A DNA stretch of 40,963 bases from an uncultured Treponema sp. (GTDB taxonomy: Bacteria > Spirochaetota > Spirochaetia > Treponematales > Treponemataceae): NCBI GenBank assembly GCA_946410085.1, contig CAMJZA010000029.1, positions 1 to 40,963 on the forward strand, read 5' to 3'. Positions 5,209 to 27,673 of the stretch are shown piece by piece. The translations under genes were made by a program, and so were the position numbers. The notes below the pieces were generated by a model. The model had not been told where the DNA came from, made no database searches, and saw only the letters and a program-made list of their open reading frames with translations. The first letter of the stretch is position 1, and every line of letters starts with the position of its first letter.

Positions 5209-5976
5209 GTGCAGGGATGGGTTTTACTCATCGATTCAGACAGGGACCGCCTCAAATCCGTGAGCAGGATGCTCCTGTCCTCGGGCATGCGGGTCAGCTG
5301 TGCCGTTTCATCACAGGCTGCCGCTTCTTTTCTTGCCCAGCATCTTCCTGACCTCATCATGGTGTCCGACGGCCTGCCCGGCGGACGGGAACTGGCGGAG
5401 GCCCTGAAGGCCGATTCCCGTCTGCGGAACCTGCCCCTCCTCTTTCTGGCGCCGGGTGCCGGGTCCGGGGCTGCGCTCACTGCGGAACAGCCGGCGCTGC
5501 CGTTTCCCGGGCCTGCACGGGAGTCTCCTTCTGTTCCGCCCCTTTCCCGGCCGCAGCAGGCAGCATCTGCCGGAACACCGCCCGCCGGGGCTTTCCCCCC
5601 GCTCGAAGGCATTTCCTATACGGATGCCGTTACGAACTGCGGCGGCGAGGAAATCCTCAGGACCGTGTTCAGGAAGTTCTATGAGTCCATCGAGGAGCGG
5701 GCAGCGGCAATAGAAGGCTTTGTCGCCGCCGCCAACTGGCAGGACTACCGCATTGCCGTCCATTCCCTCAAGTCTTCTGCCCGCCTTATCGGGGCAATCG
5801 AGCTTTCCGACGATGCGAAGGATCTGGAAGCCGCCGCGAATGAGCGGAGGACGGACGCGATCGTTGCCGGAACACCGGCCCTCCTGGATCTGTACCGGAG
5901 CTATCGGCAGAAGCTCAGCCCCCTGTTCCCGCAGGCCGGCGGCGCAGGCGGCATCCCTGCGGAGGGGAAGGTATAG
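5209..5976 (+). CDS. Degenerate receiver domain fused to an HPt phosphotransfer domain
   Basis: 255 residues. Residues 1-85 follow a receiver fold (WVLLIDSDRDRL, then PDLIMVSDGLPGG), but the position of the phosphoacceptor Asp appears to be Ser, with an Asp one residue later. The Thr and Lys of the active site are also absent. A Pro/Ala-rich linker (about 90-130) leads to an HPt domain with VHSLKSSARLIGA, where His185 is the expected phosphorylation site. GTG 5209 is supported by AGGAGAG about 7 nt upstream. It is the first gene of an operon with two hybrid kinases, 5 bp before the next gene, so it probably accepts phosphate from their receivers. No DNA-binding output partner is encoded here. 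Confidence 0.85.
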   Translation: MQGWVLLIDSDRDRLKSVSRMLLSSGMRVSCAVSSQAAASFLAQHLPDLIMVSDGLPGGRELAEALKADSRLRNLPLLFLAPGAGSGAALTAEQPALPFPGPARESPSVPPLSRPQQAASAGTPPAGAFPPLEGISYTDAVTNCGGEEILRTVFRKFYESIEERAAAIEGFVAAANWQDYRIAVHSLKSSARLIGAIELSDDAKDLEAAANERRTDAIVAGTPALLDLYRSYRQKLSPLFPQAGGAGGIPAEGKV

Positions 5977-5981
5977 CCTCT

Positions 5982-8381
5982 ATGGACACGAAGCTTGAGC
6001 GGAAGGAGGAGATCCTCGAAGCCCACCGGTCGGCACTGACCGTTGCAAGCCTGCTCTTTATTGCCCTCATCGTCGAAACGCTGGTCATGCAGTGGGAGAC
6101 CTGGGCGGTTGCATACCTGCTCGTCGGCATCCTGCTGATGTGGCTCTGCCATTTTTCCCGCACGATTTCGCTGAAGCACCGGGTCCCCCTGTATGTGGTC
6201 ATCATACTCGGTACCTTTTTCTTTTACGGCATTCACAAGACCAGTCTTTTTGACGTACCGATCATCGGCATCATCATGCTTTCCGTGTTCCTCATGATGG
6301 AATGTGACTGGGCAATCTATCTGGGAGGTGTCTTTTATTTCCTGGTCCTTGTCTGGCAGTTCCTTGTCCTGCGGAATACGGATGCCCTTGTTTCGACGCT
6401 CGAAGTTTCCCGTCTGGTTATGGACATCGTTGCCGTCGTGATTGCGACCGTGTCGACGAAGGACGTGAGCAAACGCAGGAAGAAGTATCAGGACCGCATC
6501 CTGGAAGTCGTTTCCGAGCTGGAGGAAATGAACCGGCAGACGGAAAACTTCATGGCGAACGTTTCGCACGAACTGCGGACGCCGATAAATGCGGTCTCGG
6601 GCATCGGCGAGTCCCTCCTGAAAAAGGAGCAGGATCCGCAGAAGCGGAAGGAACTGCTTGCCATCAGGCGGGCGGGCCAGCGGCTCTTTTACCAGATCAG
6701 CGATGTCCTTGACTATACGGAAATGGGATTAAAGCGGCTCAAGGTCAGCGAGGGCCCCTACAGCATCGCTTCGACCGTCAACGACATCGTTACTGCCCTG
6801 CGGGAGCGGGACGACAAGCCTGCCGTGGAACTCCTGTTCGACGTGGACTCCCGCATTCCCTCCGTCCTGCTCGGCGATGAAGGAAAGATACGCAAGATCC
6901 TCCGCCACCTGATCGAAAACTCGATAAAGTATACGCAGGAAGGTGCCGTCTACGTCAAGGTCACTTCGTTCAGGAAGGATTACGGGGCAAACCTGTTCAT
7001 CTCGATTTCCGATACGGGCGTCGGCATGAGCGAAGAGCAGCTGCATAAAATCTTCGGGCGGCTCTACCAGGCTGAACCGGACCATGCCCGGACGAGTACC
7101 GGCATCGGGCTGGGGCTCACCGTCGTATACGGCCTTGTCCAGAGCATGGGCGGCTTTATCCAGATAGAAAGCGAAGTCGGGAGCGGAACGGAAATCCATA
7201 TCAGCATTCCCCAGAAGGTGCTCGACGACACGCCCTGCATGGTCATCTCCAGCGAACGTTCCTTCTGCGTTGCCTACTGCTTCCGTACCGAAAAGTTCAG
7301 CAATCCGATGGTCCGGGAATACTATGAGCGCCTGATTTCGGTGATACAGGAGTCCCTGCCGGGAACGCTGATCCGGACGACCGACATGACCGGTCTGGAG
7401 CGGATAAACCAGCAGTACAGCCTGACCCACATCTTCACGGGACTTGATGTGTATGAGGCAAACCGGGCGTTCTTTACGGACGTTGCATCCCGTGTCCATG
7501 TGGTCGTCGTTGTTCCGCGGGATTTCCAGGGCCGCAGCCTCGGCCCCATACCGGTCATCAGGAAGCCCCTGTTCAGCCTGCCGCTGATAAACGCCCTCAA
7601 CGGTGCCTACCATGCGGAAGAGCCGGAGACGGGCATAGCCGCCCAGCGCTTTATCTGCCCGGGCCTCAGGACGCTCGTCGTTGACGACGATGAAATGAAC
7701 CTGCTGGTTGCAGAGGGAATCCTGAAGGACTACCAGATGCAGGTAACGCTTGCAAAGAGCGGCCGGGAGGCCATTGAACTGTGCAGGACGCGTTTTTATG
7801 ACCTCCTGCTGCTTGACCACATGATGCCGGAGATGGACGGCGTGGAATGCCTGCATATCCTGCGGCGGCTGAATCCCCATGCGGAAAAGGAGATGGTTGC
7901 CATTGCCTTTACGGCAAATGCCGTCAGCGGTGCGCGCGAGTTCTTCCTCGGGGAAGGCTTTGACGAGTTCATTTCCAAGCCGATAGAACTGCTGAGCTTT
8001 GAGCGGGTGCTCAGCCGAGTATTGCCGGCCTCGATGATCAAGCCCCTGCACCGGCTGTCGTCTCCCGGCATGGCAGAGGCCGTTGCCGCAGGACCGGCAG
8101 GCATGGCGGAACCTGAAGGCGGCAGCCTCCGGCTCTTTCATGCCCTGTACGATGCGCTTGATACGCTGGAAGCCGATAAGGTTGAACGCCTGATGCAGCA
8201 GATTGATGGCCTGCGCTATGGCGGAAGGTCGCTGGACGAACTGCTGCCCGGGGCGCGGGAAGCTGTTGCGCGCTTTGACTTTACGCCGGTGCAGGAGCAG
8301 ATAGGCCTGCTTCTGCGCCAGCTTGAGGCTGCGGGCGCAGCGGCGGGAGAAGGAGGCGAAGGAGGCAAAGATGGAAGGTAA
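5982..8381 (+). CDS. Hybrid sensor histidine kinase with receiver domain
   Basis: 799 residues. Residues 20-165 form about six hydrophobic membrane helices with short loops, so the input is membrane-embedded rather than a periplasmic domain. The HisKA domain has FMANVSHELRTPINAV with His196. The ATPase domain shows HLIENSIKYT (N box), DTGVGMS and GIGLGLTVV. A stretch around residues 410-540 looks like a degenerate receiver. A full receiver follows (TLVVDDDEMNLL, LLLLDHMMPEMDG with Asp612, FTAN, and SKPI with the conserved Lys). A C-terminal tail of about 110 residues has no clear domain and lacks an HPt His motif, consistent with the HPt being supplied by the preceding gene. The ATG at 5982 has purine-rich GGAGGGGAAGG upstream, and the end overlaps the next gene by 11 bp. 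Confidence 0.93.
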   Translation: MDTKLERKEEILEAHRSALTVASLLFIALIVETLVMQWETWAVAYLLVGILLMWLCHFSRTISLKHRVPLYVVIILGTFFFYGIHKTSLFDVPIIGIIMLSVFLMMECDWAIYLGGVFYFLVLVWQFLVLRNTDALVSTLEVSRLVMDIVAVVIATVSTKDVSKRRKKYQDRILEVVSELEEMNRQTENFMANVSHELRTPINAVSGIGESLLKKEQDPQKRKELLAIRRAGQRLFYQISDVLDYTEMGLKRLKVSEGPYSIASTVNDIVTALRERDDKPAVELLFDVDSRIPSVLLGDEGKIRKILRHLIENSIKYTQEGAVYVKVTSFRKDYGANLFISISDTGVGMSEEQLHKIFGRLYQAEPDHARTSTGIGLGLTVVYGLVQSMGGFIQIESEVGSGTEIHISIPQKVLDDTPCMVISSERSFCVAYCFRTEKFSNPMVREYYERLISVIQESLPGTLIRTTDMTGLERINQQYSLTHIFTGLDVYEANRAFFTDVASRVHVVVVVPRDFQGRSLGPIPVIRKPLFSLPLINALNGAYHAEEPETGIAAQRFICPGLRTLVVDDDEMNLLVAEGILKDYQMQVTLAKSGREAIELCRTRFYDLLLLDHMMPEMDGVECLHILRRLNPHAEKEMVAIAFTANAVSGAREFFLGEGFDEFISKPIELLSFERVLSRVLPASMIKPLHRLSSPGMAEAVAAGPAGMAEPEGGSLRLFHALYDALDTLEADKVERLMQQIDGLRYGGRSLDELLPGAREAVARFDFTPVQEQIGLLLRQLEAAGAAAGEGGEGGKDGR

Positions 8382-11300
8382 CCGCAATCGTTTGCTGCAG
8401 CTTCTCCTGCCGGACAGGCGGATCATCGTGCGTGCCGCCATCGGAGGTATCTTAGGCATCGTCGCCGTGCTGGGCAGTTCTCAGCTTCTGTACCGCCATC
8501 TGATTGCACGTGCGCTGCATGGCAAGGCTGAGCTGATTACGCGGCGGCTGGAAGGCGTTGCAAGCAGGCTGCTGCTGAAGCTGCAGGGGCTTGCCTACAG
8601 TTCCGACTTTCAGGACTACTTTTTAAACACGGAAGGTGAGTTCCAGCTCGATACCATAAAGAAGGCAAGCCTCCTGTACGATAACCAGCTGCCGGTCGGA
8701 AAGCTCTTCTGGGTTTCGGACAGCGACCTGCGCTACTATGAGGAAACAAAGTTCCGGCGCGTCCTGTCGCCCGCATCCGGGACTGACCGCTGGTATGACG
8801 GGGTGAATGCCGACAGCTACTATCTGCTGACGCAGGAGCTTGAAGCGGATCTCGACGGCGTGGGCCATAGCTTTTTCCGTGTCAGCGTTCCCGTGTACCG
8901 GTCTGACGGTAAAAAGGCCGGTGTCGTCGGTGCAATGGTGTCGCTGGAAGAACTGGGGGCCGTCCTGAAAACTGCTTCGGACGATAAAAAGGACCTGCTC
9001 TTTCTGCGGAGTTCGGGAGGCCAGCTCCTGAGCCTTGACCCGGCAGCAGCCAGCATCAAGCTGTTTGCCGTGCTGACCGACCTGTACGACAGCCTGCGTT
9101 CCCTGCCCGCCAGGAAGGGGAGCTTCATGCTGGGCAAGTGCGATTACGGCAGCTACGCGCTTGCGGCGGTTACCGCTGACTGGAGCCTGGTGCTCCTTTC
9201 CCCCGTTTCGGGCGGCCTGTATGCCCTCTGCTTTGCCTTCATGTTCTTCATGCTGTGCTTCCTGTCCGCCGTCGTGCTGAATGTCCTGCAGACCCGCCGC
9301 TATATCGCGGAGAACCGGATCATCAGCGCACAGAAACGCGAGATAGAGATTCTGAACGAAAACCAGAGTTCGTTCTTTTCGAGCATGAGCCACGAAATCC
9401 GCACGCCGATAAATACGATCATCGGCCTTGACGAGATGATCCTGCGGGAGGATATTTCCGATGAAGTTGCGGAAGACGCGCAGGACATTGCGGCGGCGGG
9501 CAACATCCTCCTGTCGCTGATCAACGACATACTCGACATGTCCAAGCTGGAAAGCGGCAAGATGGAAGTCGTCAACGCCGCCTATGACAGCGGTGCAATG
9601 CTGTCGGACATCGTCAATATGATATGGGTCAAGGCGAAGGAGAAGGGCCTTGATTTTCAGGTTGACATAACGCCCGACCTGCCTGCGTCCCTGATCGGTG
9701 ACGAAGTGCGCATCAAGCAGGTCCTGCTGAACCTGCTGAACAATGCCGTCAAGTATACGAAGGAAGGCGCCATTGTCTTTTCCGTTCGCTGCGAACGGCG
9801 GGGCGAAGGGGAGGCCGTCATCTCCTATGCCGTTGAAGATACCGGCATCGGCATCAAGAAGGACAGCATTCCCTACCTGTTCGACGCCTTCAAGCGGGTC
9901 GACATGCAGCAGAACCACATGATTGAAGGGACGGGCCTGGGACTGTCCATCGTAAAGCAGCTGGTCGAACTGATGGGCGGCACAATCGACGTGCGGAGCA
10001 TTTACCTGAAGGGTTCGACCTTTACCGTTACGCTCAGGCAGGAGATTGTCAGCGGGGAGGGCGTCGGCGAGCTGAACCTGCGGACCCGGAATTCCAAGCG
10101 CGACCGGGTTGCCTACCAGCAGTCCTTTGAAGCACCGTCGGCCCGCATCCTCATCGTGGATGACAACGAGATGAACCTGACCGTCGAGCAGAAGCTGCTC
10201 CGCGGTACGAAGCTGCAGGTCGACACGGCAACGAGCGGCCGCAAGGCGCTCGCCATGACGCAGAGCGTCCGCTATAATGCAATCCTCCTTGATCACCTGA
10301 TGCCCGAAATGGACGGCATTACCTGCCTGCACGAAATACGGCGGCAGCCGGGAGGCCTGAACCGGACGACGCCCGCCATTGCGCTGACGGCGAATGCGGG
10401 CAGCAAGAATCAGGCCATATATGAGCAGGAGGGCTTTGACGGCTACCTGTCCAAGCCGGTGAGCGGCATTCAGCTGGAGCGGTCGCTGCTTGCCGTCCTG
10501 CCGGAAGAACTGGTTGCCTTTCACGACGACAGCATTGACCTGCGCAATTCCAGCGTCATACGCCTTTCGTCTTCCAAGAAGATTCCGCTTGTCATTACGA
10601 CGGACAACGTGTGCGACCTGCCCCTCCAGCTGCTCCGGAGCTACGGCATTCCCGTCCTGCCGGGGAAGGTGATTACGAACGAGGGCAGCTTCCTCTGCGA
10701 TCTGGAAATTGACACGCAGGCGGTCCTGTCGTACATGCAGGACCCGGATAATACCGTCCGGTCCGACGAACCGGAGGTGAGCGAATACGAGGAGTTCTTT
10801 TCCCGCCAGCTGCAGGGGGCGCAGGCCATCATTCACATTACGATGTCGGATCTCCTCGGAAAGGCCTATGAGCATGCCTCAGAAGCCGCAAAGTCATTTG
10901 ACAATATCACGGTCGTCGATTCCGGGCTCGTGTCGAGCGGCATGGGCCTCATGATTCTGTTTGCCTGCCAGTATGCGAAGGAAAATCCGTCGGTCCAGCT
11001 TGTCCTGGATAAAATCGAAGAATCGCGCAGGCTTTTTTCGACGAGCTTCATCGTGAGTTCGCTGGAATATCTGGAGCGGAACGGCCGCATGCCGCACCTG
11101 GTGAAGAACATCTGCCAGGCGCTGGACGCCCATCCCGTGATGGGATTCTACAAGGGCATGATGCTGATCCGCCGCATCGAATTCGGCAGTACGGGAGAGG
11201 CGCGGGTGAAATACCTGAAGTCCCTGTTCAGGAACCGCGCCGCCATAGACGACAGCATTCTGATCATTACCTATGCGGGGCTGCCCTTTTCCGAGCTTGA

Positions 11301-11427
11301 ATCCCTCAAGAAGCAGGCGCTCGCCCTTGTGCCCTTCAAGCAGGTCTATTTCCAGCAGGCATCACCTGCCATTGCCTGTAACTGCGGGCCGGGCAGCGTC
11401 GGCTTCCTGTTCAGGAAACGGGGCTAA
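8371..11427 (+). CDS. Hybrid sensor histidine kinase with C-terminal DegV (fatty-acid-binding) domain
   Basis: 1018 residues. A first membrane helix (about 22-45), an extracytoplasmic sensor of about 240 residues that resembles a Cache/PAS-type domain, and a second helix (about 288-312). HisKA has FFSSMSHEIRTPINTI with His341; the ATPase domain has NLLNNAVKYT, DTGIGI and GTGLGLSIV; the receiver has ILIVDDNEMNL, LLDHLMPEMDG with Asp641 and YLSKPV. Residues about 738-1018 are a DegV domain: VITTDNVCDLP, then ITMSDLLGKAYEHASEAA, VVDSGLVSSGMG, LEYLERNGRMP and the closing CGPGSVGF, matching the family's TDS-x-CDLP, SS-x-LSGTY, DS, GGR and GPG-x-xG blocks. DegV proteins bind fatty acids and present them to fatty-acid kinase. 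Several usual Ser/Thr contacts differ (TDNV for TDST, MSDL for SSxL), so ligand specificity may be altered. The start at 8371 has GGAGG 5 nt upstream. Confidence 0.92.
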   Translation: MEGNRNRLLQLLLPDRRIIVRAAIGGILGIVAVLGSSQLLYRHLIARALHGKAELITRRLEGVASRLLLKLQGLAYSSDFQDYFLNTEGEFQLDTIKKASLLYDNQLPVGKLFWVSDSDLRYYEETKFRRVLSPASGTDRWYDGVNADSYYLLTQELEADLDGVGHSFFRVSVPVYRSDGKKAGVVGAMVSLEELGAVLKTASDDKKDLLFLRSSGGQLLSLDPAAASIKLFAVLTDLYDSLRSLPARKGSFMLGKCDYGSYALAAVTADWSLVLLSPVSGGLYALCFAFMFFMLCFLSAVVLNVLQTRRYIAENRIISAQKREIEILNENQSSFFSSMSHEIRTPINTIIGLDEMILREDISDEVAEDAQDIAAAGNILLSLINDILDMSKLESGKMEVVNAAYDSGAMLSDIVNMIWVKAKEKGLDFQVDITPDLPASLIGDEVRIKQVLLNLLNNAVKYTKEGAIVFSVRCERRGEGEAVISYAVEDTGIGIKKDSIPYLFDAFKRVDMQQNHMIEGTGLGLSIVKQLVELMGGTIDVRSIYLKGSTFTVTLRQEIVSGEGVGELNLRTRNSKRDRVAYQQSFEAPSARILIVDDNEMNLTVEQKLLRGTKLQVDTATSGRKALAMTQSVRYNAILLDHLMPEMDGITCLHEIRRQPGGLNRTTPAIALTANAGSKNQAIYEQEGFDGYLSKPVSGIQLERSLLAVLPEELVAFHDDSIDLRNSSVIRLSSSKKIPLVITTDNVCDLPLQLLRSYGIPVLPGKVITNEGSFLCDLEIDTQAVLSYMQDPDNTVRSDEPEVSEYEEFFSRQLQGAQAIIHITMSDLLGKAYEHASEAAKSFDNITVVDSGLVSSGMGLMILFACQYAKENPSVQLVLDKIEESRRLFSTSFIVSSLEYLERNGRMPHLVKNICQALDAHPVMGFYKGMMLIRRIEFGSTGEARVKYLKSLFRNRAAIDDSILIITYAGLPFSELESLKKQALALVPFKQVYFQQASPAIACNCGPGSVGFLFRKRG

Positions 11428-11519: not shown

Positions 11520-12647
11520 CTACTCCTGCTTGTAGACCTCTCCGTGCGTGTGGAAGCCTGACTTGATGACGACTTCATCGATGTTCTCTTTTGTTGCGAC
11601 CTGCGGTTCCAGCCAGAGGACGGGGATTTCCTTGAGCCCGTTGTTGATTGTCGCATCGTAGCCTGAGATGTAGCCTGCAGTTTCTCCCTTTGCGAGGCGG
11701 ACGGCACATTCCGCCGCCTTTTCGGCAAGCTCGGTAATCGGTTTGTATACGGTAAAATCCTGCCTGCCCCGCACGATGTCCTGACAGGCCGCTATGTCGG
11801 CATCCTGCCCGCAGATGGGAATGTGGCGGCCGGGACAGTAGTCGTCCAGGGCGTTCAGGACGCTGCCCGCAACGGCATCGTTGCCGCAGACGATTGCGTC
11901 CGGCAGCTCGCTTTTGGTCAGCAGGCTGGCGGCAGCCCCGTAGGAAAGGTCATAGTTCCAGCCGTCCGTATAGAAGATGTCCCGGATCGTTATGCCCTTT
12001 CCCTTGATTTCTTCTTCTATCCCCTTGAGCATCAGGGTCATGTTGTAGTCTTCGTCCGGCCCCAGGATCAGGTTCCAGCGCTTGCCGACCTTGTTCCTGA
12101 TGAACTGCTGTGCCATCAGGCGGCCGACGCTTTCCGTGTTGACCGAGATGTAGAGGCTGATGTCGGCATCGCTGATGAGGCGGTCGTAGGAAATGACTTC
12201 GATGTTCTTGTCCCGCATTTTCTTGATGACGGCGGCAAGGCTGTCCCGGTCCTTCGGGACGATGACCGCCGTGTCGACCTGCCGCTGCATGAGGTATTCC
12301 AGCTGGGCATTCTGCGTTTCCACGCTGTTTCCCGCATTCTGCACGATGACCTCGCCGCCCAGTTCCCGGACCTTGTTCATGAATACGTCAAGGTCGCGCT
12401 GCCAGCGTTCCAGGGCAAGCGTGTCTATGGAAAAGCCGATGCGGACTTTCCTTTCCCGGTCCTGCAGTTCCTTTTCTTCTGCTTTTGCCGTCTGAATCCG
12501 GGAACAGGCGGCGAGCAGGAACAGGGGCAGCACGGCGAATGCAAACAGTCTGCTGCGTGCGGAAAAAAGTCCGCTGCGTGCGGTCTGCCGCATCCGTGCG
12601 CCTGCATGCCGGTCTGCCTTTACTGATACGTTTTTACTTTGCAACAT
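11520..12647 (-). CDS. XylF-like sugar-binding lipoprotein
   Basis: 375 residues. A basic N-terminus and a hydrophobic stretch end in the lipobox LFLLAAC, so the mature protein is probably a membrane-anchored periplasmic lipoprotein. The type-I periplasmic-binding fold follows (VRIGFSIDTLALERWQRD, then repeated beta-alpha units). The block ICGQDADIAACQDIVRG followed by FTVYKPI is characteristic of D-xylose-binding proteins of the XylF group. It overlaps the upstream response-regulator gene by 14 bp and is the last gene of the sensor operon. No ABC permease or ATPase genes accompany it. Start 12647 has GGAG 8 nt upstream; ATG 12593 is an alternative that gives a shorter signal peptide. It may deliver sugar to the sensor or to a transporter encoded elsewhere. 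Confidence 0.9.
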   Translation of the reverse strand: MLQSKNVSVKADRHAGARMRQTARSGLFSARSRLFAFAVLPLFLLAACSRIQTAKAEEKELQDRERKVRIGFSIDTLALERWQRDLDVFMNKVRELGGEVIVQNAGNSVETQNAQLEYLMQRQVDTAVIVPKDRDSLAAVIKKMRDKNIEVISYDRLISDADISLYISVNTESVGRLMAQQFIRNKVGKRWNLILGPDEDYNMTLMLKGIEEEIKGKGITIRDIFYTDGWNYDLSYGAAASLLTKSELPDAIVCGNDAVAGSVLNALDDYCPGRHIPICGQDADIAACQDIVRGRQDFTVYKPITELAEKAAECAVRLAKGETAGYISGYDATINNGLKEIPVLWLEPQVATKENIDEVVIKSGFHTHGEVYKQE

Positions 12648-14189
12648 TACGGAACTCCGTCGGCGTCATGCCGAATTTGTTTTTGAATATGCGTGAAAAA
12701 TAGTTCTGGTCGTTGAAGCCGACTTCCGAACTGATTTCCTTGATGGAGCTGCGCGGATTCTTAAGGAGTTCCCGCGCCTTGCGCATCCGCAGGTCGGTCA
12801 GGTAGTTGATGTAGTTTTCGCCCCTGACTTCCTTGAACAGGCGGCTCAGATAGAAGGGACTGACGTTGATTGCCTCCGCAACGTCTTCGAGGGAGAGGTC
12901 CTCGGACATCCGCTTTTCAATGTAGTCCTCCGCCTTCTTGACAATCGGATTGTCCTTGGTCTGCGAGAACTGCATGACGTCCGTTGCACATTCCTCGCAG
13001 CGCTTGCCGGTGAACTCCAGCACCGCACTCATGCTGTCTGCTGCGGAAAGGACCGAAAAGGCGGACAGGAATTCATCGTTCCGGTAGTTGCAGTCTATTT
13101 CCGTCGTGATGTTCCGCACGTTTACGAGCAGTTCGAATATCGCATTCTTTACCTTTCCCATGTCCCCGCCGTAGCTGTCCTGCAGTGCCGCGCCGTAGGA
13201 GTTCAGCAGGTGGCGTATTGAGCTGGCGTCTCCTGCCCGCACCCTGCCGAAGATGCTTTCTGCGATGATGCCCGGATTGAGGTCCCGCTTCTTTCCTGCA
13301 TTCCGCTCCGCAAAGACGATGCCGCCCGACGCGGGCGTTGAGCTCAGGGCTTCCAGCGCTTCATTGTAGGCGGTGCCGGTCATGTCGGCGTCGGTAAAGA
13401 AGGTGCTGATGCCGCCCCGAATGCCGGATGCAACGTGGATGCAGAGGATGTTGTAGAGGGATGCGATGGTTTCCTTTGCTTTTTCCGTAACTGTGTCTTC
13501 GTCGCCGTCGATGGGAAAATAGAAGAAGGACGCAAGCCGGTTTGCCATGAAGGAACCGGTGATGCACTGTACCCTGCTCCTCAGCAGCCTGCGGATTTCC
13601 TCGTAGCTTTCGTTCTGCCGCTTTTCGTCCATGCCGGGGAACTCCAGGCAGCAGAAGCACCAGGCCGAGCCGGTAATGCCGAAGTAGGAGAAGTATTCGG
13701 AAACGTCCTTTGTTCCGCTCAGGGCTGCCGAATAGATGAAGTCGCTTTCGACCATGGGCGAAACGATGTCGAGCTTTTTGTGCAGTTCCTCTTCGCTGTT
13801 TTTCCGGCCCCGCTTCTGGTCTACGATGTTCATCGCATTGCGCAGGGTTTCGACGACGGTATTGCGGTTGACGGGCTTGGTCAGGTAGCGGTAGACGCCG
13901 AGGTTCACGGCTTCCTGCGCATACTGGAAGCGGTCAAATGCGCTCAGTATGACGATGACGCTGTCGGGCTTTGACTGCAGGATGAACTTGACCGTTTCCA
14001 GTCCGTTCAGGCCCGGCATGTTGATGTCCATGAATATGATGTCGATCTGTTCCTTCATGACCGTCTCAAGGGCACTGGAGCCGGAAAGGGCGGTGAACAG
14101 CCTTATATCGGAAGGAAAGTTCTTTTCGATTATGAACTTGAGGGAGTCAACCATTATCTGCTCATCATCAGTTACAAGAATGCCGTACA

Positions 14190-14190
<1 letters not shown>
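12634..14190 (-). CDS. AraC-type response regulator (YesN-like)
   Basis: 518 residues. The N-terminal receiver reads YGILVTDDEQIMVDSL and IDIIFMDINMPGLNG, with Asp55 as phosphoacceptor. Its Thr/Ser and Lys positions are conserved (ILSAFDR, YLTKPV). A central region of about 250 residues is typical of long YesN proteins and has no clear named fold. The C-terminal AraC domain (about 415-515) has two helix-turn-helix units: LSLEDVAEAINVSPFYLSRL and the second ending EISSEVGFNDQNYFSRIF. Its start codon overlaps the stop of the kinase gene (TAATG), indicating coupled translation. It is expected to activate sugar-utilisation genes when phosphorylated. Confidence 0.95.
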
Positions 14191-15793
<1,603 letters not shown>

Positions 15794-15797
<4 letters not shown>

Positions 15798-16798
15798 AGG
15801 CTGCCTGCCTTGCGGATTTTGACGTCCGCCGCGATGTAGCTGTTTGCATGCCCGTAGTGGATGTATTCGAACAGTTCCTTCAGGGCAAGCGAGCCGATTT
15901 TCTGGGAGTCAATGGAAAGCAGTTCTGTAATGACGCCGATTTCAAGATAGCGGTCCAGGACGCTGCCTTCGCCGAAGCCGATGATGCCGACGTAGCCCGA
16001 CTTGCCCAGGTCGTTGACCAGCTGCGCTGCCCGGATGCTGTCTTCCCCTGACAGGCACACGAGGAGGTCTGCTTCCGAGTAGCGGATTTTCCGGGCAAGC
16101 ATGCCGGAGGTTTCCGTAATGGACGCACTGGACTCAAGGTCTGCGACATAGACGGCGATATCCTCGTAGTTGGCGAGGTTGCTGGTGACGCTTGCCATGA
16201 GGGTGCTGTAGTTGGCGCTGTTTGACTTGACTGTGTTTATGACGATGAGCCTGCCCCTGCCGTTCAGGTAATCAGCGCTTTCCTGCGAAATCTTCCTGCC
16301 CAGTTCCGAATAGTTGGTGCCGATGTGTGTAATCTGGGGAATTGACTCGTCATAGTGCGATACGGTTATGAGGGGAATTTCCCTGCCGTCGAATGCCTTG
16401 GGAATCTTGAAGCCGGAGCCCCCTTCGGTAATGTAGGCGATGACGCCGTCGGCATCGACGAAAGAAGCGAAGTTGAGCAGGCTCTGGAGCGACTGGCCTT
16501 CGGCAATCGAAGAAGGGACGTTGAGTTCGACGACGCAGTTGTAGGACTTGCTTTCTGCTTCCGCCCCCTTGTAGATTTCCTTGAGCGTCTCTTCATCCGC
16601 GGATTCTCCCAGGATGAGGACGTGGTGTTTCCGGTCGTCTCCGGGGGGTGCCGGGTCGCTTTCCTGGGCCATCCGGGGCAGCAGGTAGAACAGGTAGAGG
16701 CACAGCAGCAGTGCCGCCAGGATGGACAGGGCCACGGCAAGAATCTGGGGGGCAGCTTCCTTTCCGGGCATCACCTTCTTGAGCTTCATGCCTTCCAT
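15794..16798 (-). CDS. Membrane-anchored periplasmic sugar-binding protein (sensor accessory)
   Basis: 334 residues. One uncleaved-looking membrane helix (about residues 18-41, ILAVALSILAALLLCLYLFY) precedes a type-I periplasmic-binding domain (HHVLILGESADEETLKEIY, IGTNYSELGRKI, IGFGEGSVLDRYLEIG). There is no lipobox, so the domain is probably tethered by its N-terminal helix outside the membrane. First gene of the operon with the YesM-type kinase and the YesN-type regulator, overlapping the kinase by 4 bp. The arrangement matches XylFII-LytS, where a membrane-bound sugar-binding protein signals to its LytS kinase in D-xylose sensing. Sugar identity here is inference. ATG 16798 lacks a Shine-Dalgarno sequence; ATG 16789 (MKLKKVM) is an alternative. 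Confidence 0.85.
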
Positions 16799-17103: not shown

Positions 17104-18015
17104 CTACATCCCTTGGACGGCAGGCTCTGCCGCGAGCTTTTCGACTTCCTCCAGCGGAAGTCCTACTGCCTGGGCTATCTGCTCGTTAGTAGCAACATGC
17201 AAGGCAAGGAAATTTCGTGCGGCTGACAGGGCCCTGTTCCGTTCTCCCCGGCGTTCCGCATTGTGCAGGCCGGTAATGCGGTCACACTCATCTCCGAAAA
17301 TCTTTCCCTGCTCAATCCACCGCCAGTCGGTATCGTTTAAAGACCTCAGCATTGCATCTGCACTCATGATTCCTTCCTCGCTCTTCGAGAGCCTGTCTAT
17401 CAAATCCTGTTTGTCAGGATTGTCCGCTTCCTGTATAAATTTACCCCATTTTACCGCGCTTGGCAAGCTTTCAATATCCGTATTGTCGTTAACCGGAGGC
17501 AGCTTGGGAAGCTCAAGGAATATTACGTTGATGACGCCCTCCAGCGTAGCCCCGTCCGTCATGTCTGCCAGCACGTAACGGTGCAGGAAAGACTCGTTGC
17601 CGCTATCGTACTTGAAATTCAGTACGGATATCTGGTAAGCCCTGGGCAGGTTTCCCCAGTCGTCTCCCTTCGTGGACACTGAGCTGACCAGCCGTGAAAC
17701 GTAGTATTCAGCCCGCCTGCCGTAGTCAGTCTCCCGGTCATAGCCCTGCATTTCGATCTGCGCCTTGGTGCCGTCGGTAAATACGCAGTTTATATCGTAG
17801 CGGATACCCCGCTGTTCCTCGTACTGGCCGGCCGGTTCGTTCTCCTTTACGGTGACTTCCGTCACTTCTTCGCCGATCATGGCGGAAAGGAATGACTTGA
17901 GGGCAAGCCGGGATTCCGGCCTGTCCTGCGTAAAGATGCCCTTGAAGTTGAAGTCAAGGCGGGGATTCAATCGCCTGAATTCATTTGGGTTCTGATTATT
18001 CTGCATGTTCTGCAT
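17104..18015 (-). CDS. Rpn-family recombination-promoting nuclease / PD-(D/E)XK transposase-like protein
   Basis: 303 residues from ATG 18015, chosen because GGAGG lies 7 nt upstream (the further in-frame start at 18048 has none). The N-terminus NPRLDFNFKGIFTQ is typical of Rpn proteins, where it is often written as the K-x-IF block. The nuclease core is RYDINCVFTDGTKAQIEMQ, with the Asp and Glu/Gln of the family active site, followed by RAEYYVSRL. The C-terminal third is helical and Ala/Glu-rich, as in the family. Rpn proteins are metal-dependent DNA endonucleases that raise RecA-independent recombination; many genomes carry dispersed copies. A monocistronic gene divergent from the LacI operon. 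Confidence 0.9.
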   Translation of the reverse strand: MQNMQNNQNPNEFRRLNPRLDFNFKGIFTQDRPESRLALKSFLSAMIGEEVTEVTVKENEPAGQYEEQRGIRYDINCVFTDGTKAQIEMQGYDRETDYGRRAEYYVSRLVSSVSTKGDDWGNLPRAYQISVLNFKYDSGNESFLHRYVLADMTDGATLEGVINVIFLELPKLPPVNDNTDIESLPSAVKWGKFIQEADNPDKQDLIDRLSKSEEGIMSADAMLRSLNDTDWRWIEQGKIFGDECDRITGLHNAERRGERNRALSAARNFLALHVATNEQIAQAVGLPLEEVEKLAAEPAVQGM

Positions 18016-18033
18016 ACGTTTTCCTCCACATAA

Positions 18034-18137
18034 TTGTGCGTGAGGCACAAGAGCGGGGCAGGAGCCCCCTGCACCACGCCCGCCGGGTGTTTGACGGGCA
18101 TGGCGAATGCAGGGCTTGTGCTGCTCTCAAGCCTGCA
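18034..18137. other. Two hairpins in the Rpn leader / divergent intergenic region
   Basis: TTGTGC-GTGAG-GCACAA (18034-18050) is a perfect 6-bp-arm hairpin immediately upstream of the Rpn Shine-Dalgarno (18022-18026). TGCAGG-G-CTTG pairs with CAAG-CCTGCA across 18108-18137 (10-bp stem with one bulge). Either could shape the Rpn leader mRNA. No T-tract follows, so they are not convincing terminators. Confidence 0.35.
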
Positions 18138-22775: not shown

Positions 22776-24617
22776 ATGTATGCGGAGCAGCTTGAACGGA
22801 ACATGTCGGAACTGACGGCCCGCCTGTATGCGCTGTATGGAAAGCGCTGGGATTTCTATAAGATTCTTTCCCGGCTTGAGTCCATCATGAAGAAGGCGGC
22901 TGCTGCACGTCCTGCATATCTGCGGCAGCAGGATGCGGATGCTGCGGCGCAGTATGGGGCGGAAGCTTCACCGCGTCCCTGGTACCTGAGTCAGGAAACC
23001 GTCGGCATGATGCTGTATGTGGATCTGTTTGCGGGGAATCTCCGCGGTCTTGCAGACAGGATTCCGTACCTGCGTGAGCTCGGCGTGAATTACGTGCACC
23101 TCATGCCTCTGTTTGACTGCCCCGCCGGTGAAAACGACGGCGGTTATGCGATAAGCTCCTACCGCCGCGTGCAGCCCAGGCTGGGTACGATAGACGACCT
23201 GCGCTTTGTGGCGGAGGAGTTTCACAGGAACGGCATCCGCCTTGTCCTTGACTTCGTGTTCAACCATACGAGCGACGAGCACGAGTGGGCGCAGAAAGCC
23301 CGTGCCGGAAACAGGAAATACAGGAACTCCTACTATATCTACCGGGATAAAGCGGAGGTAGACGGCTGGAACGCTACGCTGCGGGAAATCTTTCCGACGG
23401 TCCGCAGGGGATCCTTTACCTATCTTGCAAAGCAGCGGGAGTGGGTATGGACGACCTTCAACTCATTCCAGTGGGACTTGAACTATTCCAACCCAGAAGT
23501 CTTTCTTGCGATGTGCGAGGAAATGCTGTTCATTGCGAACCTGGGCGTGGACGTGCTGCGCCTGGATGCGCTTGCCTTTGTCTGGAAGGAGAAGGGAACG
23601 GTGTGCGAGAGCCTGCCGAAGGCCCATGTGGTCATACAGGCCTTTCAGTACGTTGCCCGCATTGCCTGTCCTTCCCTTCAGTTCAAGAGTGAAGCAATCG
23701 TGCATCCCGATCAGGTGATTCAGTACATCCAGCGGAACGAGTGCCGCCTGAGCTATAATCCGCTCCAGATGGCCCTGTTCTGGTCAACTGTTGCGACGCG
23801 GGATACCCGCCTGCTGACGCTTTCGCTCAAGAAACGCCAGTCCATCCCGGACGGCTGTGCCTGGGTCAACTACATCCGCTGCCATGACGACATCGGCTGG
23901 ACCTTCAGCGATGAGGATGCTGCGCAGCTGGGTATAGACGGTTACCTGCACCGGCAGTTCCTGAACCGCTTCTTTACGGGTCGCTTTGACGGCAGTTTTG
24001 CGGCGGGCGAGCCTTTCCAGCTGAACCCGACGACCGGGGACTGCCGCATCTGCGGAACGATGGCAAGCCTTGCCGGGCTTGAACAGGCGGAGTCCTGCAA
24101 TAATGAGGAATGGCGTTTCATGGCGCTTGAGCGCATGAAGATGATGTATGCGGTGCTGTTTGCCCTGCCGGGGATTCCCCTCCTGTATGCAGGTGACGAA
24201 AAGGCAGTGTTCAATGACTACAGCTACCGTGATGACCCGGCGAAGCGGGATGACTCGCGCTGGGTCCATAGGGTTGCCGACCGCGGCTCCGGAAGCGGTT
24301 TCTGCTATGCATCGCAGAAAGAACTGGCGGACAGGCTGCGGGAAATCATAGCGGCACGGAAAAAGGAGCCGATGCTCGGCGGGCAGGATGTATTTTTCTA
24401 TGATACGCAGGACAGTCATGTCTTTGCCTTCCGCCGGGGAACGATTCACGTGGTCGCAAACTTTTCGGAAAGCCCTGCCGGATTCAGGATTGATGCATGG
24501 TCAGCCAGCAGTACGGACCTGCTGAGCGGAAGAATGTTTGCGAATCATCTGCCGCAGGAGCTTGCTCCCTACGAAGTGCGCTGGCTGAAAGAGAACCTGA
24601 AGAAAGAGAATCCATGA
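22776..24617 (+). CDS. GH13 amylosucrase-like glucosyl hydrolase/transferase
   Basis: 613 residues, near the usual amylosucrase length (about 630-640). The N-terminal helical domain (RLYALYGKRWDFYKILSRLE) is specific to the GH13_4 group. Catalytic blocks: LVLDFVFNHTSDEH, VDVLRLDALAF (nucleophile Asp264), KSEAIVHPDQV (acid/base Glu306) and YIRCHDDIGWTFS (His370-Asp371 with Asp372). HDDIGW is the amylosucrase/sucrose-hydrolase version of this motif. The group uses sucrose or related glucosyl-fructosides and either hydrolyses them or transfers glucose to make alpha-glucans or isomers. No signal peptide, so it is cytoplasmic. It overlaps the GH65 gene by 4 bp. Sucrose phosphorylase activity is a less likely alternative. 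Confidence 0.92.
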   Translation: MYAEQLERNMSELTARLYALYGKRWDFYKILSRLESIMKKAAAARPAYLRQQDADAAAQYGAEASPRPWYLSQETVGMMLYVDLFAGNLRGLADRIPYLRELGVNYVHLMPLFDCPAGENDGGYAISSYRRVQPRLGTIDDLRFVAEEFHRNGIRLVLDFVFNHTSDEHEWAQKARAGNRKYRNSYYIYRDKAEVDGWNATLREIFPTVRRGSFTYLAKQREWVWTTFNSFQWDLNYSNPEVFLAMCEEMLFIANLGVDVLRLDALAFVWKEKGTVCESLPKAHVVIQAFQYVARIACPSLQFKSEAIVHPDQVIQYIQRNECRLSYNPLQMALFWSTVATRDTRLLTLSLKKRQSIPDGCAWVNYIRCHDDIGWTFSDEDAAQLGIDGYLHRQFLNRFFTGRFDGSFAAGEPFQLNPTTGDCRICGTMASLAGLEQAESCNNEEWRFMALERMKMMYAVLFALPGIPLLYAGDEKAVFNDYSYRDDPAKRDDSRWVHRVADRGSGSGFCYASQKELADRLREIIAARKKEPMLGGQDVFFYDTQDSHVFAFRRGTIHVVANFSESPAGFRIDAWSASSTDLLSGRMFANHLPQELAPYEVRWLKENLKKENP

Positions 24618-27600
24618 GAGGCTGGAATATGAAGTTTTCAACGGACAGATTCGGAAATGACGATACTCCGCGCAACGAAACCCTTTTTACGCTCGGTAAC
24701 GGAAACCTGGGCCTGCGGGGAGATACGGAAGAAAAAAACGGAACGGTTCACAAGGGAACCTATATCAATGGTTTTTACGACAGCGAGACCATTCTGTATG
24801 GCGAGAATGCCTACGGTTATGCGAAGAACCATGAGACTATCCTGAACCTGCCGGATCCCAAGCGGATAGAGCTGTCCGTTGACGGGCATCCGTTCGATAT
24901 GTGCGGAACTGACGGCTCTACGGTAACGGCTTTTCATCTGGAGCTTGATGAAGATGCAGGAGTCCTGACCCGTGACGTTTCCTGGAACTGCGGATCCGGC
25001 GGGGCAGGAGGCGCGGGATCTGCACATGCGGCGGCTGCGATAGCCCTGCACAGCGAGCGGCTTGTTTCCTTCGTACACCCCGACTGTGCGGTCATACGCT
25101 ATTCGCTGCGGAATGTTTCCGCCGGGACGGAACATATACGGATTGCGTCGTACATTGATACCACGGTGGGAAACATCCTTGCGGAAGTTGACCCGCGGAT
25201 CGGCGCAAAGTTCCGCCACAAGCCGCTCGTCATAGACGGGGCTGCCTGCACCGGCGGCCTGCAGTCATTCTGCGCCCACACCGCCCGCAGCGGCCTGTTC
25301 CTGTGCGGGACCGTACGGAACGAACTGTGTGCCGGCGGCAGAATGCTGTCATGGGATGAGTCGTCGGCGGATGACAGTCTGCCCTGCTGTGCCGCAGAAT
25401 TTGAGCTTGCAGCGGGAGCTTCCTGTACCCTGCTCAAGTACATCGCCTATTCCTGGGACAAAACGGCGGAAGGGCTTTCCGATCGGGCACAAAAGGCCTG
25501 TGAAGCCTTTGCCGCTGCGGGCTACGAAAAAGCCCGTGCGGAACAGGCAGCCTTTCTTGCGGACTTCTGGAGCGTGGCGCGGATCAGCATTGATGACGGC
25601 CGGAATGCGGCGGCCGGGAAAGGCGACGGCAGGGGCGGCAGTGCGTCCTGCTGCGGCACCGGCGGTTCCTTCAGGGAAGCGGCGGCAAATTCCACGGCGA
25701 ATTCCACGACGGAAGAAGCCCTGCAGTTCAATCTGTTTCATTTACTGCAGTCGGCGGGCCGGAGCGGGGCGGTCAGCATTGCCGCAAAGGGGCTGACGTC
25801 GGAAGGCTACGAAGGGCATTTCTTCTGGGATACGGAAAGTTACGTCTGCCCCGTGTTCACGTATACCGCCCCTGCCGTTGCCCGGAAGCTGCTCGAGTAC
25901 CGGGCGTCGATACTCGGCAAGGCGAGGGAACGCGCGGCGGAGATGAGCCTGAAAGGTGCGCTGTATCCCTGGCGGACGATAAGCGGAGAAGAGACGAGTG
26001 CGTATTTTCCTGCGGGAACGGCACAGTACCATATAAATGCAGACATCATTTTTGCCCTGAACCGCTACCTGAACGCGCACGGGGATGATACCGGTTTTGA
26101 CGGCGATGCCGTACAGGAGATGACGGCTGAAACCGCCCGGATGTATGCGTCGCTCGGCAGCTTCACGCCCGCTAAGGGCGGAGCCTTCTGCATACACGAC
26201 GTTACCGGACCGGACGAGTATACTGCCATTGTCAACAACAATGCATTTACGAACCTGATGGCACGGGAGAGCTTTGAGATAGCGGTCCGGCGGTCCGGCA
26301 GCAGGGCGACGGCGCAGGAAAAACAGGCCTGGCAGGAAGCCGCTGCGCGCATGTACGTTCCCTTTGATGCGGAAGCCGGCGTCTATCCGCAGGACGACAG
26401 CTTCATGGACAAGCCCGACTGGGATTTTGCGGGCACTCCCCGGGAGAACTACCCCCTGCTCCTGCATTATCATCCCCTGGTCATCTACCGGCACCGGGTC
26501 CTCAAGCAGCCGGATCTGGTGCTTGCCCAGTTCCTCCTGAGCGGCCGCTTTAGCCGTGCGGAAAAGATACGGAACTTCAAGTTTTATGAGCGCTATACGA
26601 CGGGAGACTCTTCCCTGTCCCACTGCATCATGAGCATCATGGCGGCAGAAACCGGTAACAGCGCAAAGGCCCTGGACTACTTTAACAAGACGGTCCGCAT
26701 GGACATAGATGACGTGAACGGCAACAGCAGGGACGGCATCCATACCGCCTGCATGGCCGGCAGCTGGATGAGCGTCGTCTACGGCTTTGCAGGCTTCCGT
26801 GACTATGGCGGAATCTACTCGTTTAATCCCCGCCTGCCCGACGGCTGGAAAAAGCTTTCCTTCTCGCTTGCCATACGGGGCTGCATCGTTGACGTGTGCA
26901 TTACGCAGGATTCGGCGTGCTACCGTCTCCGCGAAGGCTCCAGATCGCTGGAACTGGTGCATCGGAACACGAAGTTTACCCTGTCAGGCGGGCAGGAAAA
27001 GACCTTCAGCCTTAAGCGGAAGCTGGGGGCGGTTCTCTTTGACCTTGACGGTGTCATAACGGATACCGCTCAGCTGCACTACCGGGCATGGAAGGAACTG
27101 GCGGATGCGGAAGGCCTTGCGTTCAACCACGAGATAAACCGGCAGCTGCTCGGTGTTTCCCGTGAAGAATCCCTTGAGCGGATCCTTGCGGCGAACGGTG
27201 TTACCTGGACGGCGGAAAAGAAAGCTGCCTGCTGTACCCGGAAGAATGAGCGCTACAAGGAGCTTCTGGGCGGCCTGACGGAAAAGGATATCCTGCCTGG
27301 AATCGTGGACCTGCTCAGGGAACTCAAGGCTCACGGCGTTCCTGCCGTGCTTGCATCGAGCAGTAAGAATGCCCCGGCCGTACTGGATGCGCTGGGAATA
27401 CGGGATTGCTTTGCTGCAATTGCGGATGCCGCCCATGTACAGAAAGCGAAGCCGGAAGCTGACATATTCCTTGACGCTGCGGAAAAATCCGGTGCCTGGT
27501 ATGATGACTGCGTCGGCATAGAAGACGCACCCGCAGGGGTTGCGGCGATAAAGAATGGCGGCCTTACCGCCGTGGGAATCGGCAGTGACAGGGAGCTTGC

Positions 27601-27673
27601 CGCCGCCGACCTGATTCTCGATTCAACGGCGGAACTGACCTATGCACGGCTCAAGGCGTTGATGGAGAATTGA
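24614..27673 (+). CDS. GH65 disaccharide phosphorylase fused to beta-phosphoglucomutase
   Basis: 1019 residues, about the sum of the two enzymes. Residues 1-790 are a GH65 phosphorylase: ETLFTLGNGNLGLRGD near the N-terminus, EGHFFWDTESYVCPVF, YPWRTISGEE, AQYHINADIIFAL and DVTGPDEYTAIVNNNAFTN with general acid Glu535. Residues 805-1019 are a HAD-family beta-phosphoglucomutase: VLFDLDGVITDTAQLHYRAW with Asp810 and Asp812, LASSSKNAPAVL, and VGIEDAPAGVAAI. GH65 cleaves maltose, trehalose, kojibiose or nigerose-type bonds with phosphate, giving beta-glucose-1-phosphate, which the mutase turns into glucose-6-phosphate. Start 24614 overlaps the GH13 stop as ATGA; the reading frame extends upstream to 24497 but only within GH13. 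Two Gly/Ala/Ser-rich inserts (about 130-145 and 335-365) look like linkers. Exact substrate not readable. Confidence 0.94.
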   Translation: MRGWNMKFSTDRFGNDDTPRNETLFTLGNGNLGLRGDTEEKNGTVHKGTYINGFYDSETILYGENAYGYAKNHETILNLPDPKRIELSVDGHPFDMCGTDGSTVTAFHLELDEDAGVLTRDVSWNCGSGGAGGAGSAHAAAAIALHSERLVSFVHPDCAVIRYSLRNVSAGTEHIRIASYIDTTVGNILAEVDPRIGAKFRHKPLVIDGAACTGGLQSFCAHTARSGLFLCGTVRNELCAGGRMLSWDESSADDSLPCCAAEFELAAGASCTLLKYIAYSWDKTAEGLSDRAQKACEAFAAAGYEKARAEQAAFLADFWSVARISIDDGRNAAAGKGDGRGGSASCCGTGGSFREAAANSTANSTTEEALQFNLFHLLQSAGRSGAVSIAAKGLTSEGYEGHFFWDTESYVCPVFTYTAPAVARKLLEYRASILGKARERAAEMSLKGALYPWRTISGEETSAYFPAGTAQYHINADIIFALNRYLNAHGDDTGFDGDAVQEMTAETARMYASLGSFTPAKGGAFCIHDVTGPDEYTAIVNNNAFTNLMARESFEIAVRRSGSRATAQEKQAWQEAAARMYVPFDAEAGVYPQDDSFMDKPDWDFAGTPRENYPLLLHYHPLVIYRHRVLKQPDLVLAQFLLSGRFSRAEKIRNFKFYERYTTGDSSLSHCIMSIMAAETGNSAKALDYFNKTVRMDIDDVNGNSRDGIHTACMAGSWMSVVYGFAGFRDYGGIYSFNPRLPDGWKKLSFSLAIRGCIVDVCITQDSACYRLREGSRSLELVHRNTKFTLSGGQEKTFSLKRKLGAVLFDLDGVITDTAQLHYRAWKELADAEGLAFNHEINRQLLGVSREESLERILAANGVTWTAEKKAACCTRKNERYKELLGGLTEKDILPGIVDLLRELKAHGVPAVLASSSKNAPAVLDALGIRDCFAAIADAAHVQKAKPEADIFLDAAEKSGAWYDDCVGIEDAPAGVAAIKNGGLTAVGIGSDRELAAADLILDSTAELTYARLKALMEN

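Follow-up and report, generated by a model that had tools for sequence, protein, structure and literature searches.

A FakB-type DegV domain joined to a hybrid histidine kinase: a candidate fatty-acid-sensing phosphorelay family in Treponema and gut Lachnospiraceae

Contig CAMJZA010000029.1 of GenBank assembly GCA_946410085.1, from an uncultured Treponema sp. (Spirochaetota; Treponemataceae), carries a gene in which a hybrid histidine kinase (HK) with its receiver (REC) is joined to a C-terminal DegV domain. The window analysed here is the whole stretch of 40,963 nucleotides (nt; positions 1 to 40,963, forward strand). The gene is a single uninterrupted frame on the + strand, running from ATG at 8371 to TAA at 11427 and encoding 1018 amino acids (aa). 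Its ATG lies inside the end of the upstream gene, whose stop is at 8381, and this overlap, together with an AGGAGG motif at 8360–8365, supports the start at 8371. The gene and its parts are as follows.

8371–11427 (+): HK-REC-DegV fusion gene, 1018 aa; open frame, Pfam matches and recurrence in about 80 further genomes
8360–8365 (+): AGGAGG, a ribosome-binding-like site 5 nt ahead of the ATG at 8371; read directly
8419–8505 (+): membrane helix 1, aa ~17–45; hydrophobic stretch, with a long helix at 16–75 in the full-length model
8515–8976 (+): dCache-like extracytoplasmic region, aa 49–202; Pfam dCache_1 below cut-off
9211–9288 (+): membrane helix 2, aa ~281–306; hydrophobic stretch
9364–9558 (+): HisKA, aa 332–396; Pfam E 1.8e-15
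9391–9393 (+): phospho-acceptor H341, codon CAC; His in 82/82 readable family members
9697–10044 (+): HATPase_c, aa 443–558; Pfam E 2.9e-27
10147–10479 (+): receiver (Response_reg), aa 593–703; Pfam E 2.2e-20
10291–10293 (+): phospho-acceptor D641; Asp in 84/84 family members
10591–11415 (+): DegV domain, aa 741–1015; Pfam E 3e-37, TIGR00762, AlphaFold and structure match

HisKA, HATPase_c, Response_reg and DegV all exceed their Pfam gathering cut-offs, and the dCache_1 match falls short of its own (E 6e-4, 19.8 bits against 45). Both membrane helices are putative, assigned from hydrophobic stretches. An earlier sequence-only reading had described a complete hybrid kinase with His341 and Asp641, and this description stands: Pfam and the family alignment give HisKA with its His, HATPase_c and a receiver with its Asp. 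From these domains and the conservation of H341 and D641, the protein is predicted to autophosphorylate and to take part in phosphotransfer. Long frames also lie opposite the kinase genes, such as 8623–10875 (−), and are probably by-products of codon use.

The assignment of the C-terminal part to the DegV family is secure on both profile score and two-domain fold. The Pfam model (PF02645) is matched over positions 3–278 of 280 with 128.9 bits (cut-off 27), and TIGR00762 of NCBIfam with 147.6 bits (cut-off 99.7). All the sequence blocks that had been noticed by eye are present (CDLP 748–751, DS 850–851, NGR 904–906 and GPGSVG 1006–1011). An AlphaFold2 model of the domain, built with 47 family sequences, has a predicted local distance difference test score (pLDDT) of 95.4 and a predicted template modelling score (pTM) of 0.92. 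The domain matches structure 2dt8 (Z 33.2, root-mean-square deviation 2.2, 275 residues aligned), and Foldseek and VIA-align match DegV/FakB structures, many of them fatty-acid-bound, at Z 28–33 across 254–279 residues. Chance resemblance to DegV is ruled out by the Pfam score, the model confidence and the structure match. The full-length protein model has a pTM of 0.39, and no domain arrangement is drawn from it; in it the receiver–DegV linker (aa 719–735) has low pLDDT, which suggests that DegV is tethered rather than rigidly coupled to the receiver.

The sequence-only reading could not judge how common such a fusion is, and allowed that an assembly error might have joined a separate gene to the kinase. 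Scanning species genomes with the window DegV sequence alone found no relatives. An alignment of eight DegV parts recovered 272, of which the best 80 loci were kept. With models made from the family's own domains, all of these best 80 of 272 carry REC-DegV within one frame, and the complete order HisKA-HATPase-REC-DegV is present in 77 of the 80. The other three (L076, L090 and L094) are without the front part, L076 and L090 lying at a contig end. The kept loci are mostly from Lachnospiraceae; about ten are from Treponema, the genus of the window, and others come from Oscillospiraceae and a few further groups. Two strong matches were found when 59 relatives were searched with the DegV part, both of them long frames of HK-REC-DegV type with a hybrid kinase upstream. 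At the level of the order, eight carriers were found among 394 genomes, including that of the window itself: seven belong to its genus and the eighth to a different genus within Treponemataceae. A phylum-wide search of 393 genomes found the fusion type in only three. The family of Acetatifactor muris was sampled with 299 genomes; a strong DegV match occurs in 58 of them and a DegV-matching frame of at least 700 aa in 45, the latter being a count by frame length, with the architecture confirmed for the fetched loci. An assembly error is ruled out, since the architecture recurs in independent assemblies, namely seven more Treponemataceae genomes and the kept loci of the scan.

Treponema does not group in one place in a quick tree of 84 fusions: branches with good support require at least three changes. 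Because of this placement, the tree is read as showing transfer of the gene between Bacillota and Treponema, in one direction or the other. Two entries, L049 (titled Bacteroides) and L053 (titled Thermoflexaceae), nest within Lachnospiraceae clades and may be mislabelled. Two HK-REC-DegV genes stand in tandem in L062 (3460–8849) and L064 (3461–8852).

The fusion gene is preceded in the window by two genes of the same strand.

5209–5976 (+): 255-aa protein with a degenerate receiver that lacks the acceptor Asp, then a histidine phosphotransfer (Hpt) domain (HSLKSSA); Hpt E 3.6e-8 (Pfam)
5982–8381 (+): partner hybrid kinase of 799 aa, HisKA-HATPase-REC with no Hpt; Pfam, 11-nt overlap with the fusion

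A similar arrangement is found across the family, with a second hybrid kinase upstream (usually with a 4-nt overlap) and a receiver gene ahead of that kinase. The partner kinase is present in 75 of 84 fusion entries, the remaining entries being mostly contig ends. Hpt is detected by profile in 74 of the 75 loci with a partner kinase, and in the other one (L032) it lies within the 338-aa first protein. Its position varies between the partner kinase, the region behind DegV and, as in the window, a small separate protein; that Hpt is kept in the locus wherever it is placed is consistent with the need of a phosphorelay. The variants with Hpt C-terminal to DegV (L152 and L153, of 1162 and 1157 aa) imply that the role of DegV goes beyond that of a terminal output. 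Short stand-alone receivers occur in 24 of 84 entries and HD-GYP proteins in 32 of 84, the entries without them including contig ends; by Pfam, the latter are REC-HD-GYP proteins in several loci and REC-GGDEF-REC-HD-GYP in L050. The window operon shares with L035 and L032, its nearest kin, a first protein with a receiver-like start, from which the acceptor Asp has been lost, and with an Hpt instead; the first part of the 255-aa protein aligns with the receivers of the REC-HD-GYP proteins of relatives. Pfam finds no output regulator and no HD-GYP gene among the proteins of the window operon, and many receivers and HD-GYP proteins are encoded elsewhere in the genome.

No fatty-acid or phospholipid genes adjoin the fusion among the Pfam-scanned neighbours, a scan that covered a minority of the loci. 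A family-3 solute-binding protein gene lies 3′ of the fusion in several loci (for example, L033 7539–8342 and L041 8882–9685). A free DegV directly follows an HK-REC-Hpt gene in L155, and in L154 an HK-REC frame overlaps a separate DegV frame, either as a real split or through a frameshift. The window genome (3.64 Mb, 134 contigs) encodes a single further DegV, whose gene adjoins a Dak2/FakA gene, and so a canonical Fak pair is present apart from the fusion.

The function of FakB gives a measure by which the fused domain can be read. In FakB1 the carboxylate of the fatty acid is held by a hydrogen-bond network of Thr62, Ser95, Ser171 and His270, and Arg173 and Arg205 are conserved and essential (PMC8892158). 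Arg205 contacts FakA and the membrane, and the R173A protein exchanges fatty acid normally and is inactive with FakA (PMC9136124). The corresponding positions in the window are given below; residue counts refer to 85 aligned fused DegV domains, and those for Arg173 and Arg205 to the 84 rows of the tree set.

10762–10764 (+): S798, FakB1 Thr62 site (carboxylate network); Ser in 84/85 fusions
10858–10860 (+): G830, FakB1 Ser95 site; Ser in 79/85 fusions, Gly in the window
11086–11088 (+): R906, FakB1 Arg173 site (catalytic Arg), retained in the window; from the alignment
11182–11184 (+): F938, FakB1 Arg205 site (FakA and membrane dock); from the alignment
11380–11382 (+): N1004, FakB1 His270 site (carboxylate network); from the alignment

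The network of FakB is altered in the fusions, being Ser798/Gly830/Asn1004 in the window and Ser/Ser/Asn in most of the family. The His270 site is Asn in 82 of 85 and, counted over 84 fusions, in 81; Gly at the Ser95 site is shared by the window, L035, L036 and two others. The Arg205 site, F938 in the window, is Arg in none of 84 fusions and is mostly Met, Ile, Phe or Val; a basic residue follows a few places later in some of them, which makes the local alignment there provisional. At the Arg173 site 65 fusions have Arg, 11 Gln, four Lys and four His (19/84 non-Arg), with at least nine changes between Arg and non-Arg on the tree, gains and losses pooled. Free DegVs and fusions from one set of seven genomes served as a control: the 13 free DegVs have Arg173 in 13/13, Arg205 in 12/12 aligned, Thr62 in 12/13 and His270 in 12/13. 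The six fusions of the control genomes all have Ser at Thr62, Asn at His270 and Ile, Val or Met at Arg205, and three have Gln at the Arg173 site. A free DegV beside the fusion of L110 is intermediate, of fusion type at 748, 822, 921, 989 and 1005 and of FakB type at Thr62, His270 and Arg205.

Loss of Arg205 as sole proof of lost FakA contact is rejected, since DegVs that are fused to FakA (L017 and L018) have also lost it. Arg173 is the more telling site for FakA function: these FakA-fused domains keep it, and the R173A result indicates that a change there would spare binding and end delivery (PMC9136124). The sequence-only reading had pointed to TDNV (744–747) and MSDL (825–828), and these indeed differ from TDSx and LSSGxSG, the usual forms. 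The difference is largely peculiar to the window copy and its closest kin, since Ser stands at 746 and 830 in most members, and the informative sites are 798, 906, 938 and 1004. Its call for a buried acyl pocket was taken up as a fold match and a residue comparison; the fold matches, and the residues of the carboxylate site are altered yet polar in most members. The fused DegV is under purifying selection: in close pairs the ratio of nonsynonymous to synonymous substitution (dN/dS) is 0.035–0.123 for DegV, close to the 0.015–0.089 of the kinase and mostly below that of the N-terminal region. By the Arg205 site and the carboxylate network the fused domain does not belong among the FakA carriers, and it likely acts like a fatty-acid binder.

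We judge it probable, though well short of certain, that a FakB-type domain has been captured as the fatty-acid-sensing regulatory module of a multi-kinase phosphorelay. In this view, a FakB-like DegV that originally carried fatty acids for FakA would have been attached C-terminally to the receiver of a membrane hybrid kinase, becoming the ligand-binding regulatory domain of that kinase. With the kinase in the inner membrane, the tethered DegV could pick up a fatty acid or a close relative from the inner leaflet or the cytosol, and its occupancy would alter phosphate transfer by the kinase or the receiver. Phosphate would pass from His to Asp, then to the Hpt of the operon and on to a response regulator, an order that follows from domain knowledge; in many relatives the end point may be the adjacent REC-HD-GYP protein, a phosphodiesterase of cyclic di-GMP (c-di-GMP). 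A sensing domain fits best because the carboxylate site remains polar, the FakA functions are relaxed, constraint is strong and two kinases accompany an Hpt. The sequence-only reading had favoured a sensor over a substrate carrier, and the loss of Arg205, the frequent loss of Arg173 and the altered network bear this out; its broader proposal of a fatty-acid-related phosphorelay protein is likewise supported by the residue changes and the separate FakA-DegV pair.

Several points weigh against a fatty-acid sensor. Fatty-acid binding by the fused DegV is itself a prediction. Sensor domains mostly precede HisKA, and outputs are more often found behind receivers. The window copy retains Arg906, and, as the FakA-fused domains indicate, loss of Arg205 alone may reflect tethering. 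The FakB1 Ala158 tunnel position is Thr or Ser in 83 of 85 fusions (Thr891 in the window), which together with Gly830 makes the fatty-acid affinity of the window copy uncertain. Finally, His822 (85/85), His921 (81/85), Cys748 (80/85) and Cys1005 (79/85) are near-invariant in the fusions, both cysteines being present in 76 of 85, and all four are absent from S. aureus FakB1 and FakB2, which could mean another ligand.

On that last explanation, DegV would use these histidines and cysteines to sense another lipid, an acyl-phosphate, a small carboxylate, a metal or a redox cue, and the tunnel substitution at Ala158 would agree with it. It is nevertheless unlikely, as the descriptions of the top structural matches name fatty-acid or lipid binding and the carboxylate-site positions are polar, Ser/Ser/Asn in most members. 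Somewhat less likely still is that DegV is an output, such that phosphorylation of the receiver controls how DegV is loaded with fatty acid or passes it on to FakA or to the membrane, and signalling steers lipid supply. The position of DegV C-terminal to the receiver, the retained Arg906, the FakA encoded in the window genome and the chance that tethering substitutes for docking would all suit an output; against it stand the repeated loss of an Arg173 that FakA-fused and free DegVs keep, and without which FakB1 has no Fak activity (PMC9136124), and the Hpt found behind DegV in part of the family. That DegV is a ligand-free dimerisation or structural module of the kinase pair is very improbable: two kinase genes do occur together and one kinase without recognisable HisKA or receiver is joined to DegV (L157 3281–5875, possibly a pseudokinase sensor), but the ligand-site motif positions are among the conserved ones and selection on DegV is strong, beyond the needs of a spacer.

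The proposed fatty-acid sensor can be set beside known systems. With S. aureus FakB1 and FakB2 (PF02645, TIGR00762) the fused DegV shares the full-length fold (Z 30–33) and the same sequence blocks, and its carboxylate-site positions are still polar in most members; it differs in sitting covalently on a hybrid kinase, in having lost Arg205 and exchanged His270 for Asn, and in the replacement of Arg173 in about a fifth of members. The Dak2/FakA-DegV fusions of the same order (L017, L018; Pfam) likewise have DegV at the C-terminus and lack Arg205, but join it to the fatty acid kinase itself and keep Arg173. RpfC answers a fatty-acid signal in the diffusible signal factor (DSF) system of Xanthomonas (PMC5391125), and many relatives have partner genes with the HK-REC-Hpt and REC-HD-GYP layout of RpfC/RpfG; the comparison is by domain layout, and the layout is a common one. 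The window departs from it with its degenerate REC-Hpt protein and no HD-GYP, and RpfC, which has no DegV, binds DSF through a short sensor at its N-terminus. In S. aureus, fatty acids build up when fatty acid kinase is missing, and these inhibit SaeS (PMC5539427), likewise a histidine kinase linked to Fak-pathway fatty acids, but SaeS acts through its membrane anchor by an unknown route and has no fatty-acid-binding domain. The parallels with RpfC/RpfG and SaeS are analogies only. DhaQ of Lactococcus is a distant fold relative of the fused DegV (Z 16). As co-activator of the dha operon, it is a kinase-substrate subunit turned regulator; it differs in having another ligand, in being a separate protein and in acting as a transcriptional co-activator.

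Elsewhere in the window, a convergent cluster at 11520–16798 (−) consists of a binding-protein-like gene, an AraC-type response regulator, a histidine kinase and a second binding-protein-like gene, and is probably a sugar-sensing two-component system. It is followed by a PD-(D/E)XK family transposase gene at 17104–18048 (−). At 24497–27673 (+), a GH65 phosphorylase is joined to a HAD-family hydrolase in one frame of 1058 aa, which is preceded by a gene of the alpha-amylase family and by sugar ABC transporter genes.

Our literature search on DegV and (hybrid) histidine kinases found no open-access paper on the fusion, although an earlier mention elsewhere is possible; as far as that literature shows, this is a hybrid kinase with an accessory domain new to its class. 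To our knowledge, domains by which bacterial two-component systems directly sense free fatty acids are few. We tentatively propose, at somewhat less than even confidence, that the fusions of gut Lachnospiraceae and Treponema form a widespread and apparently undescribed family of phosphorelays that sense fatty acids inside the cell, with a FakB-derived sensor bound to the kinase and with many members controlling c-di-GMP through HD-GYP. A practical caution for annotation is that a name taken from the DegV model alone hides the kinase, and vice versa. If the proposal is true, gut bacteria would own a dedicated fatty-acid receptor bound to a kinase, and its descent from the carrier of an enzyme could be traced at the level of single residues. 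Lipid state would then be linked to a phosphorelay, and in many species to c-di-GMP, a link that would be testable in cultured strains, for example Acetatifactor muris DSM 23669 and Schaedlerella arabinosiphila DSM 106076.

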